From NCBI RefSeq assembly GCF_021648855.1, contig NZ_JAKJHX010000071.1, forward strand, positions 282 to 27,443: a stretch of DNA of 27,162 bases, written 5' to 3'. Source of the stretch: Tychonema litorale BBK16. GTDB taxonomy: Bacteria; Cyanobacteriota; Cyanobacteriia; Cyanobacteriales; Microcoleaceae. The notes below the pieces were generated by a model. The model had not been told where the DNA came from, did not search any database, and saw only the letters and a list, made by a program, of their open reading frames with translations. A program made the translations under genes and the position numbers. Shown one piece after another: positions 6,821 through 10,079 of this stretch. How positions within the stretch are numbered: position 1 is the stretch's first letter; every line of letters begins with the position of its first letter.

Positions 6821-6899
6821 AGTGTTGGGTTTCGCAAAGCCTCAACCCAACCTACTATTTGCTATTTGTAGGTTGGGTTGAGGAACGAAACCCAACACT
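6821..6899. repeat. Large inverted repeat (AGTGTTGGGTTTCG...CGAAACCCAACACT)
   Basis: Left arm 6821-6855 and right arm 6868-6899 pair almost throughout (TTGGGTTTCG with CGAAACCCAA, CTCAACCCAACCTAC with GTAGGTTGGGTTGAG), with a loop of about 12 bases. This GTAGGTTGGGTTGAGG-type palindrome is a familiar dispersed element in cyanobacterial genomes. Its place 17 bases past the dapL stop makes it a plausible terminator or mRNA-stabilising hairpin. Confidence 0.85.
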
Positions 6900-6946
6900 C
6901 TATATGTTTAAAACGGATATTAAGGTGTAAAACAAAAAATGTGAGT

Positions 6947-6952
6947 TATAAT
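6947..6952 (+). promoter_or_regulatory. Candidate -10 element (TATAAT) for the three-gene operon
   Basis: A perfect TATAAT lies 37 bases before the start of the 198-aa gene and after the dapL hairpin. No good -35 is present at 16-18 bases, so this is only a candidate. Confidence 0.4.
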
Positions 6953-6989: not shown

Positions 6990-7586
6990 ATGTCCTATAG
7001 CGAATTCACCCTCAAAAAAGTCAAACAAGACTTTCAACTCACCCTAATAGAAGTTCCTACTTTTATTATTTCAGCGCCGCCGATTCAGCCGAGTCCAGCC
7101 CTAGCTGAGTTTATCGAAAAACGCCTACCTCTAGCCCTAGCATTGAATACCGAAAAAGCTCGTTCTGAAATGATTATCTGTCCAATTTTGCTAGAATTAA
7201 AAGATATTTTTAATCAACAAATTAGTCTTTTTTCTGGCAATGATTTTACCGTTGATCAATCTGTGGGACTTAACGGTGTCTGCGACTTCCTGATCAGCAA
7301 ATCGCCCGAACAACTTTTTATCGAAGCTCCTGCTATGATTGTGGTGGAAGCTAAAAAAGAAGACATCAACGGCGGACTTGGACAATGTATTGCTGAGATG
7401 ATTGCGGCTCAACGTTTCAACGAGAAAAACGGTGACTTTGTGAACAAGCTCTATGGTTGCGTTACGACGGGGAACTTGTGGAAATTTATCAAATTAGAAG
7501 AGCAAACTGTTACAATTGGTTTGAGAGAATACTCATTGCCACCAGTTGACGAAATTTTGGGGATTTTAGTTAGCTTTATTACTTAA
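6990..7586 (+). CDS. PD-(D/E)XK nuclease superfamily protein (198 aa), first gene of a three-gene operon
   Basis: The residue order fits the PD-(D/E)XK fold as seen in type I restriction HsdR N-terminal domains: E60 in a helix (KARSEMIICPIL), D99 in LNGVCDFLIS, E120-A-K122 in MIVVEAKKED, and Q132 in GLGQCIAEMIAAQRF. The whole protein is essentially this one domain, with no helicase part. Similar single-domain proteins are common in cyanobacteria, usually annotated hypothetical. It could cut or nick DNA, or be a structural or regulatory relative. Its stop is only 25 bases before the ATPase gene and it shares that orientation, so co-transcription is likely. The fold call is fairly sure from motif order; the biological role is inferred. 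Confidence 0.75.
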   Translation: MSYSEFTLKKVKQDFQLTLIEVPTFIISAPPIQPSPALAEFIEKRLPLALALNTEKARSEMIICPILLELKDIFNQQISLFSGNDFTVDQSVGLNGVCDFLISKSPEQLFIEAPAMIVVEAKKEDINGGLGQCIAEMIAAQRFNEKNGDFVNKLYGCVTTGNLWKFIKLEEQTVTIGLREYSLPPVDEILGILVSFIT

Positions 7587-7611
7587 TACCAGCCAATACT
7601 AGGAGTTCATT

Positions 7612-9117
7612 ATGCACTTGCTACGAGTTCAAGTTCCTGATTTTCGGGGATTGAAAAATATAGATATCACTTTTGAAAAGGATTTTGTTCCTAGTATTTT
7701 TCCGCTGGGAAGTCAAAATGGCGGCGGTAAAAGTACGCTGTTGCAATTAATTTTTACATTGTTACACTGTTCGGTTGATGAGGATAAAAAACCATTTTTA
7801 CAAAATCTGCTTCAGGGATTTAAAATTTCTGATGGCGAAGATAAAAGAGAATTGGCAATCATTGATATTTGGGATGGAAGAAAAACTATTGAGATTGTTT
7901 TTTTTGTGTCAAATGATGCTTTTGTAAAACAAGTATTATATTTAGACATTAAAGACAAAAATATCAATGAAGACTATCTCGGCTTTTCATGTCCAATGCA
8001 ATTAAAATTAATTGAAAATAAAATTGCGGATTTAGAATCGGTAAATAATAGTTTTCAAAATATCAGTAACAGATTAGATGCAATCAAAAGTATTGAAGAT
8101 AATAAAGAAAGAATTGACAGGGTTAGAAGAGAAATCATGTTTATTCAACAGTTAATATCAAATACAGAAAATCCAGTATTAAGACCAGTTATTTATTCCA
8201 GTACAAATGTGTCCATCAAAGAAATTCAAAACTTTCAAAATGATATCAAACAAAGACTAGAAATAGTTGAAATAAATCTCAGTGATTTGAAAAAAAAATA
8301 TGTGAAATGCGGGGAAACTTGGGAAAGAATCATTGAAGATTTAAAATCAAAAAATATGACATACATATGTAACTATTCAAGTGATAAGACTTCAAACAAT
8401 AAGCAAGATCAAGCTTTACTCTGTCATTCCAATGATATAGATAGGAATGAAATAGAGGTTATTTTAAATACACTTTCATCTAAAATATTTTTGGCAGCTC
8501 CATCTACGCAAATCTTTTTATTTTTTGATAAATCTACTAGAGAACTTTTATTTAGAAGTAAAGCCGAGATAAATCAGAGTTATTCCCAGGAACTTAACAA
8601 CTCAAGATTAAAATTAAAAAACTTTTTTACTTACGATTTTCTAGAAGTAGATTTATTAATTGAATCTTTTAAAACTGCTAGAGATATAGATTTCAAGGAA
8701 GCCATAGAAACTGGTGAATATGGTAATAATTATCAAACCTTGGTTAAGGAATTAACTTGCTTGTTAGCCAATAAAAAAATAAATCTTGACAAAGACCTTT
8801 CGGGATTAACTTTTAAATTGGACAATAATGGTGAAACTATAGAACTATATCCAGAAGATTTAAGTCATGGCGAACTCAAAAGACTTAGCATTTATATATG
8901 GCTCAAATCCCGGAACATAAAAGATGCTATAGTTTTGATGGATGAAGTTGAAATTGCTTTTCATCCAGATTGGCAATATCAAATTATATCAGACCTCAAA
9001 GAGTGGGCTCCCAGCAATCAATATATTCTGGCAACTCACTCCTACGCATTGTGTGAAGCTTTGACGCCGGCTCATGTTAAAGAAATTGAGCCAAAATTGA
9101 TTAAACAAGAATCCTAG
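7612..9117 (+). CDS. ABC/SMC-type AAA ATPase (501 aa), second gene of the operon
   Basis: N-terminal strand MHLLRVQVPDFRGLKNIDI is typical of RecF/OLD/SMC-like ATPases. Walker A is GSQNGGGKST (33-42, with a Gly-rich variant loop). A coiled-coil-like, Glu/Lys/Asn-rich insertion spans about 135-250. The ABC signature is LSHGE (417-421), Walker B is IVLMDEVE (440-447), and the switch His is in ATHS (474-477). No nuclease domain is fused to it. Such ATPases usually act as sensors or motors with a separate effector; OLD/Gabija, PARIS AriA and retron-linked ATPases are known examples. The gene is clearly more AT-rich than dapL or hisS nearby, with long runs of A and T, hinting at horizontal transfer. 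It lies 25 bases after the nuclease-like gene and 8 bases before the Toprim-like gene. Confidence 0.85.
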   Translation: MHLLRVQVPDFRGLKNIDITFEKDFVPSIFPLGSQNGGGKSTLLQLIFTLLHCSVDEDKKPFLQNLLQGFKISDGEDKRELAIIDIWDGRKTIEIVFFVSNDAFVKQVLYLDIKDKNINEDYLGFSCPMQLKLIENKIADLESVNNSFQNISNRLDAIKSIEDNKERIDRVRREIMFIQQLISNTENPVLRPVIYSSTNVSIKEIQNFQNDIKQRLEIVEINLSDLKKKYVKCGETWERIIEDLKSKNMTYICNYSSDKTSNNKQDQALLCHSNDIDRNEIEVILNTLSSKIFLAAPSTQIFLFFDKSTRELLFRSKAEINQSYSQELNNSRLKLKNFFTYDFLEVDLLIESFKTARDIDFKEAIETGEYGNNYQTLVKELTCLLANKKINLDKDLSGLTFKLDNNGETIELYPEDLSHGELKRLSIYIWLKSRNIKDAIVLMDEVEIAFHPDWQYQIISDLKEWAPSNQYILATHSYALCEALTPAHVKEIEPKLIKQES

Positions 9118-9125
9118 TATTATAA

Positions 9126-10079
9126 ATGAGTCTTAATCCAGAACAGCTAAAAGAATGGTGCGAGTTTATTTTGAAATCTCGCAAAATTCAAAACAAAATT
9201 GTGGTACTATGCGAAGGTGTTTCTCCAAAAATACAGGGTAGAGAGTCACCTCAAGCTTATAAAGCAATGGAGAAAATGCCAGATGCCAACTTCTATAAGG
9301 CTTGTATTCCTACATGGTGGAGACAGAATAGACCGGAATTTTTCAATTGTGGCGATCGCGCAACTGTAATCAATACTTATTTGAATCTTTTAACATTACA
9401 CGAACAGGATACCACTAACTCCTATTTAGATCCAGATCGACTTTTTGCAATGATAGATTTAGACTTACACTTGCAAGAGATTGATAATTACAGTTTTCCC
9501 GATACAGAAGCAATTTTTTGCAATCTTTACGAAAAATCGCAGGTGAAAGCACAAAATGCAAAACAGCACCGCATATGGATTACAGGTTTGATTCATAAAG
9601 AAGCATATTTTATCACACCTGAACTTCAATCAATATTTGATGATTATCCTAATTCTCCTATGTATCAGGATAATCCTGTTCAACTGAATAGTATTTATAT
9701 GGATATGGCTGATAAAATTAGTAGCGATCCAGACTTGAAGAATAACCTTAACATACGGAGAGCCCTCGATCGCATAAATCATTGTTCGGGATTATATTGT
9801 ACGCAATTAGACTTAGATAAATTTCAGGATTCATGGAAACATCAGTTTCAAAATACGACTGATGCAGCCCAGAAGCATGAGTTAATCCTAGCTTTGCTGA
9901 CAATCAAAAAAGCGAAGAATTATTGGAAGCAAATCAAGCCACCCGGTGACTGGAGTGGGGATGAGAAAAATTTTAGAGAACAACTATTGTTAGAAATTGG
10001 CAGATTTTATTCACAGCAAAGTAGCGATGTTAATTGTCATATTCCTTTTTTTTTCAAAGAATTGCATGAGTTCGTTTGA
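9126..10079 (+). CDS. Toprim-like (DUF4435-like?) protein (317 aa), third gene of the operon
   Basis: No match is recalled with certainty, but the N-terminal half reads like a Toprim domain: strand IVVLCEG with E30, then RLFAMIDLDLH with D111-x-D113, followed by FPDTEAIFCNLYE, similar to the T-E-x-E stretch after the DxD motif in DUF4435 proteins. The C-terminal half is helical with no recognisable motif and ends IPFFFKELHEFV. No signal peptide or membrane segment is seen. Toprim proteins next to ABC-type ATPases are effectors in several defence systems (AriB of PARIS, for example). Here only 8 bases separate the genes, so translational coupling is likely. The Toprim call is moderate; identity with DUF4435 is only a suggestion. 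Confidence 0.65.
   Translation: MSLNPEQLKEWCEFILKSRKIQNKIVVLCEGVSPKIQGRESPQAYKAMEKMPDANFYKACIPTWWRQNRPEFFNCGDRATVINTYLNLLTLHEQDTTNSYLDPDRLFAMIDLDLHLQEIDNYSFPDTEAIFCNLYEKSQVKAQNAKQHRIWITGLIHKEAYFITPELQSIFDDYPNSPMYQDNPVQLNSIYMDMADKISSDPDLKNNLNIRRALDRINHCSGLYCTQLDLDKFQDSWKHQFQNTTDAAQKHELILALLTIKKAKNYWKQIKPPGDWSGDEKNFREQLLLEIGRFYSQQSSDVNCHIPFFFKELHEFV

Follow-up and report, generated by a model that had tools for sequence, protein, structure and literature searches.

Three consecutive forward-strand genes, here called A, B and C, lie in a 27,162-nucleotide stretch of the genome of the filamentous cyanobacterium Tychonema litorale BBK16 (the whole stretch analysed, hereafter the window), and had been proposed in an earlier note to form a three-gene anti-phage system made of a PD-(D/E)XK-like protein, an ABC-type ATPase and a Toprim-like protein. 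We find that this proposal holds minus gene A: the unit consists of two genes, B and C, and gene A is a bystander, a common and unrelated neighbour. The B-C pair is real and conserved, looks like a distant cousin of PARIS, formally falls outside the PARIS definition, and is probably a two-gene, PARIS-like abortive-infection module. We infer the defence function from the constant pairing of the two genes, the intact ATPase motifs of B, the invariant acidic residues and AriB-like predicted fold of C, a fast-evolving insert in B, purifying selection outside that insert, and the known defence genes that a few relatives carry next to the pair or at the position it takes. The coordinates of the three open reading frames (ORFs), and the gaps of 25 and 8 bases between them, were reproduced as follows.

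Gene A, 6990-7586, forward strand: 198 residues; PD-(D/E)XK-like neighbour, judged outside the system.
Gene B, 7612-9117, forward strand: 501 residues; OLD/ABC-type ATPase, AriA/PtuA-like, proposed sensor.
Gene C, 9126-10079, forward strand: 317 residues; AriB-like Toprim protein, proposed nuclease effector.

A conserved ATPase-Toprim pair

Matches to C were found in 19 of 386 cyanobacterial genomes (18 strong), and B (E ≤ 1e-20) in 18, a set identical to that of the strong C matches and including four of the six genomes sampled from the genus of the window. The remaining C match, in genome G318, is weak and partial (26% identity, residues 108-236); tblastn at E ≤ 1e-3 failed to recover it (locus L048), and it was set aside. 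Among 26 related loci taken with wide flanks (L023-L048), tblastn placed B immediately ahead of C in all but L048, where neither gene was seen. L027 and L032 agree in length and in matches and represent a single contig, which leaves 25 distinct loci including the window. The gap between B and C ranges from -11 to 98 bases. Two loci come from the methanotrophs Methylobacter and Methylovulum, with C identities of 42% and 39%.

The motifs previously assigned to B (GGGKS at residue 37, LSHGE at 417, MDE at 443) were confirmed, as were E30 and D111-x-D113 of C, which are invariant in a 79-member alignment. The residues and regions on which the argument turns are these, with B conservation assessed over 23 proteins.

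Walker A GGGKS, B residues 37-41, 7720-7734, forward strand: G37-S41 invariant.
Proposed trigger-sensing region, a hypervariable coiled-coil insert, B residues ~99-250, 7906-8361, forward strand.
ABC signature LSHGE, B residues 417-421, 8860-8874, forward strand: L417, S418, G420 and E421 invariant.
End of Walker B, MDE, B residues 443-445, 8938-8946, forward strand: invariant.
E30 of C, 9213-9215, forward strand: proposed as the Toprim glutamate that ends strand 1; invariant in 79, following the strand at residues 26-29.
D53 of C (DxxFY), 9282-9284, forward strand: in the hhalign alignment it falls on the aspartate within the cyanobacterial AriB motif EGxxDxxFY.
D111-x-D113 of C, the Toprim DxD, 9456-9464, forward strand: invariant in 79, at the end of the strand at residues 106-112.

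The third protein was modelled as an AriB-like Toprim protein carrying the expected acidic residues, and not as an unrelated fold: Toprim proteins were closest overall to the predicted structure, and AriB gave the longest and best resemblance. hhalign pairs the AriB glutamate with E49 of C, rather than E30; the loop that separates E30 from D53 is weakly modelled. A Foldseek search of C against the PDB and viral libraries returned nothing at E ≤ 0.001, and a sequence search against solved structures nothing relevant.

In PARIS, also named Class 4 OLD (PMC10568477) and classed as a TOPRIM-linked OLD-ABC system (PMC12839542), AriA forms a ring that can hold as many as three AriB (PMC11455837). 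According to PMC12409363, AriA senses phage proteins such as Ocr and frees AriB, which dimerises and cuts tRNA; cleavage by two metal ions is proposed there, and the E26A mutant is inactive. In PMC9122126, deletion of either gene abolishes defence, and detection calls for both genes, with AAA_15 at 32 bits or more or AAA_21 at 27 bits or more for the ATPase and DUF4435 at 27 bits or more for its partner. B scores 51 bits on AAA_21, and the earlier likening of the pair to PARIS is supported. By their description, the OLD-ABC conflict systems linked to TOPRIM that PMC12839542 cites are alike in architecture and kind. Unlike AriA, B lacks the P of the DEPE motif and, by our reading, the EG and DxxFY motifs stand ~20 residues further apart in C than in AriB.

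For comparison we took 30 DUF4435 loci, of which 24 entered the AriB-like alignment (six fusions, short or broken sequences were dropped) and 20 the AriA-like one. DUF4435 occurs in 42 of the 148 genomes of the order, the window's own included, where it adjoins an AriA-like ATPase. The window's own genome also holds, on another contig, C61 (L079, L097), a canonical AriA-AriB-like pair (AriB 3.4e-28, AriA 1.1e-22).

The hypervariable insert and a proposed mode of action

Among the 23 B proteins, mean pairwise identity is 67% for residues 1-98 and 61% for residues 281-501 of the ATPase head, and 19% (aligned columns) for residues 99-234, whose length varies from 11 to 140 residues; long helices are seen in the insert of the B structure model. 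A larger set of 121 proteins, made of the window copy and 120 of 1457 homologues, among the matches listed, falls into length classes of ~50, ~115 and ~175 residues for region 99-280, with a few at ~75. Among 1387 pairs whose C-terminal parts are 85-95% identical, 674 differ by at least 20 residues in the length of this region. On the head tree, whose support is modest, length class changes 14 times, against a minimum of 3 and a shuffled mean of 54.4, which suggests that inheritance accounts for part of the insert classes, and exchange or remodelling for the rest.

Ratios of nonsynonymous to synonymous substitution (dN/dS) were obtained by Nei-Gojobori counting with our own script on 12 locus pairs, some of them non-independent. 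They span 0.08-0.24 for the N part of B, 0.09-0.69 for its C-terminal part and 0.22-0.50 for gene C. For the insert they reach 0.42-1.18 in 11 pairs, values that alignment error there may inflate; the twelfth pair (L043-L044) shows no replacement change. These sequence comparisons indicate a fast-evolving insert and purifying selection on the rest of the pair. The middle part of B is the least conserved in all 239 comparable pairs (14 were too short), and of four segments of canonical cyanobacterial AriA, the one at residues 91-180 shows the lowest conservation in 59 of the 61 pairs that exceed 45% identity. Variability of the insert is therefore not peculiar to B, and its occurrence in both proteins strengthens the mechanistic parallel.

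By analogy with PARIS, B would assemble and keep the Toprim nuclease C inactive until it meets a phage product, which B would bind, probably by its coiled-coil insert. The ATPase would then change state and release C, and the freed C, acting as AriB does, would cut host nucleic acid, most likely tRNA or another structured RNA, using metal ions bound at E30, D111 and D113, E30 being our presumed choice of catalytic glutamate. Growth would thereby stop before the phage could be completed. The pairing, the motifs and the predicted fold favour these roles, with B sensing and C killing.

An unlikely alternative on the identity of the target is that B-C represents an OLD-type DNA nuclease split in two, in which C would attack phage DNA directly, like Gabija or Class 1/2 OLD, rather than host RNA. 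ATPase and Toprim chemistry are indeed shared with these systems, in contrast to which the ATPase and the Toprim-like protein are here encoded by separate ORFs. C resembles AriB best and over the greatest length, however, and AriB is reported as an RNase (PMC12409363). Gabija membership itself, which calls for ATPase and Toprim in a single chain together with a UvrD-like helicase, was rejected, since the two proteins occupy separate ORFs and, judged by reading the flanking ORFs in the window only, there is no helicase-like gene beside B-C; the flanking ORFs include the aminotransferase (Aminotran_1_2) and one that we take to be sugar-kinase-like.

Genomic setting and competing explanations

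One and the same aminotransferase gene (Pfam Aminotran_1_2; presumably dapL) precedes B-C, directly or with one gene between, in ten of the 25 distinct loci, and in seven a leucyl-tRNA synthetase gene (Pfam, one representative) is at most a few genes away. The pair adjoins a complex I 49-kDa subunit gene in three loci and sits in a pqq region in two, with one locus elsewhere and two contigs ending too early. The pqq loci are those of the methanotrophs (L029, L030), where the pair stands in a metabolic gene cluster between what we take to be pqqB and pqqC.

The position behind the aminotransferase gene was compared in six genomes lacking B-C there, two of which have B-C elsewhere. It is occupied by PD-Lambda-1 and a caspase-domain protein in G039, by a PD-T4-4_A-like ATPase in G022, by PIN-domain genes in G253, by an A-family gene in G318 and by an alanyl-tRNA-synthetase-like ORF in G201. 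A clear defence match was thus found in two of the six (five scanned, all but G064), and the position is possibly a cyanobacterial defence hotspot. DarT lies ~2.5 kb from B-C in two of 15 genomes searched (G064, G243) and elsewhere in four more; between DarT and B-C stands an AbiJ-domain gene (Pfam on L040; L044 by clustering), and DarG is placed at the DarT site by the neighbour scan and gene order.

Several observations weigh against a PARIS-like abortive-infection module. C, which the earlier note rightly called divergent, is missed by the PARIS definition, scoring 15.4 bits (E 0.016) on DUF4435 against the cut-off of 27. It matches no PADLOC model, AriB included, at E ≤ 1, and only four of its 79 relatives match the AriB model, weakly (best 0.015) and no better than they match unrelated models, whereas four canonical cyanobacterial AriB score 3.4e-28 to 6e-47. 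A neighbour scan of 14 B-C loci against 14 control stretches from the same genomes gave no separation (68 families in 117 ORFs versus 67 in 99). Finally, the pair occupies sites beside housekeeping genes that are stable within clades (6 label changes, minimum 5), and C is absent from the viral contigs, plasmids and phages searched.

These last two points would suit a toxin-antitoxin or genome-maintenance pair, with the nuclease C as its toxin, the ATPase B as its antitoxin, and a role in stability or stress rather than in phage defence. We regard this as rather unlikely, as the presence of B-C is patchy (the 18 of 386 genomes and four of six in the genus noted above), and defence better accounts for the fast insert and for the defence genes adjoining B-C or occupying its position. 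Among the matches listed in the neighbour scan (25 of 68 and 25 of 67 families), DarT, DarG and NsnB appear in B-C rows only and mad3 in control rows only; the NsnB model matches 2-15 places per genome and is thus weak neighbour evidence. PD-T4-6 models, which we take to be generic kinases, head or fill the two lists.

It is improbable that A, B and C act together, with A contributing a PD-(D/E)XK nuclease. Gene A does lie 25 bases upstream on the same strand, and the residues assigned to it earlier (E60, D99, E120-x-K122, Q132) were all found: in an alignment of 17 sequences (the window copy and 16 tblastn segments), E60, D99, E120 and K122 are identical in all and Q132 in 16. Its PADLOC match is PD_DExK (3.2e-52), and the window copy has no Pfam match at E ≤ 1. 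In four more loci, too, B is preceded by a complete or partial A-family gene. The conserved three-gene synteny is nevertheless not borne out, A standing immediately before B in only five of the 25 distinct loci (the window and L023-L026, all of the Microcoleus/Tychonema type, the A frame in L025 and L026 being short or matched in part only). Among the 18 B-C genomes, A is directly ahead of B on the same strand in one, the window's own. L028-L031 and L033-L047 show no A within the flanks retrieved; L027/L032 have an A-family gene on the opposite strand, ~1.6 kb past C, and the one in G318, behind the same aminotransferase gene, lacks B-C. The family occurs in 90 of the 386 genomes, against 18 for B-C, in many with at least eight copies, the window's own genome included. 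The earlier note's reservation, that homologues of the 198-residue protein might always be found alone, thus largely applies, the family being widespread, multicopy and mostly apart from B-C. Between L024-L026 and the window, A is 95-99% identical over the matched part, C 80-82%, and B 67% (full length in L024; residues 242-501 in L025 and L026, where residues 1-98 are 89% identical), indicating that A and B-C differ in evolutionary rate.

Membership of Septu, with B as PtuA, is highly improbable and was rejected: B resembles PtuA of Septu and of retrons Ec78/Ec83 in sequence (its best PADLOC model, 1.7e-21) and in fold, where PtuA ties with AriA, but its partner C has no HNH or PtuB match in Pfam and PADLOC scans and is modelled closest to Toprim proteins.

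The AT-richness previously noted for gene B was reproduced, with a guanine-cytosine (GC) content of 0.302 and 0.24 at third codon positions, against 0.479 and 0.483 in the upstream aminotransferase gene; the values are 0.447 and 0.416 in a window gene that we take to be hisS-like. Horizontal acquisition is plausible from composition and the methanotroph relatives, although insertion sites are fairly stable within each clade. The TATAAT noted ahead of gene A is present (6947-6952) but uninformative: the window holds 26 against 20.04 expected, at least 26 occur in 9 of 100 shuffles, and no promoter-like hexamer pair precedes gene A among those listed for the window.

Some further features of these loci were observed. 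The content behind the aminotransferase gene varies between relatives (L091, L092, L093, L095, L096), several of which carry defence genes or PIN-domain genes there. Genes for putative nucleases of the Uma2 type recur downstream of C (L024, L027, L028, L033) and upstream of B (L047), as judged from Pfam Uma2 and PADLOC PDC-S03 and PDC-S17 on two L024 representatives and by clustering for the others. The A family is strikingly multicopy across many cyanobacteria. Between the aminotransferase gene and A lies a palindromic repeat (6825-6900) that looks dispersed, its right arm (6869-6897) having 19 copies with at most two mismatches in the window's own genome and the reversed control none.

Implications for PARIS-type defence

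Among the publications listed in our searches, none was seen on the B-C subfamily or on a hypervariable AriA sensor. Tentatively, B-C may form a separate branch of the PARIS type whose Toprim effector has departed from DUF4435, and the insert may be an exchangeable trigger-recognition element of the OLD-ABC/Toprim class. If the branch is separate, the extra loop would lie beside the catalytic site, possibly with a different RNA target; if the insert is exchangeable, its natural classes of ~50, ~115 and ~175 residues would serve to recognise different phage proteins. B-C also offers a further natural example from which the targets of Toprim effectors may be learned, and the fast insert common to B and canonical AriA marks one stretch where the trigger may be read. 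As the PARIS rule rests on DUF4435, a lineage that keeps the architecture and fails the rule implies that such alarms may be under-counted, especially in cyanobacteria.
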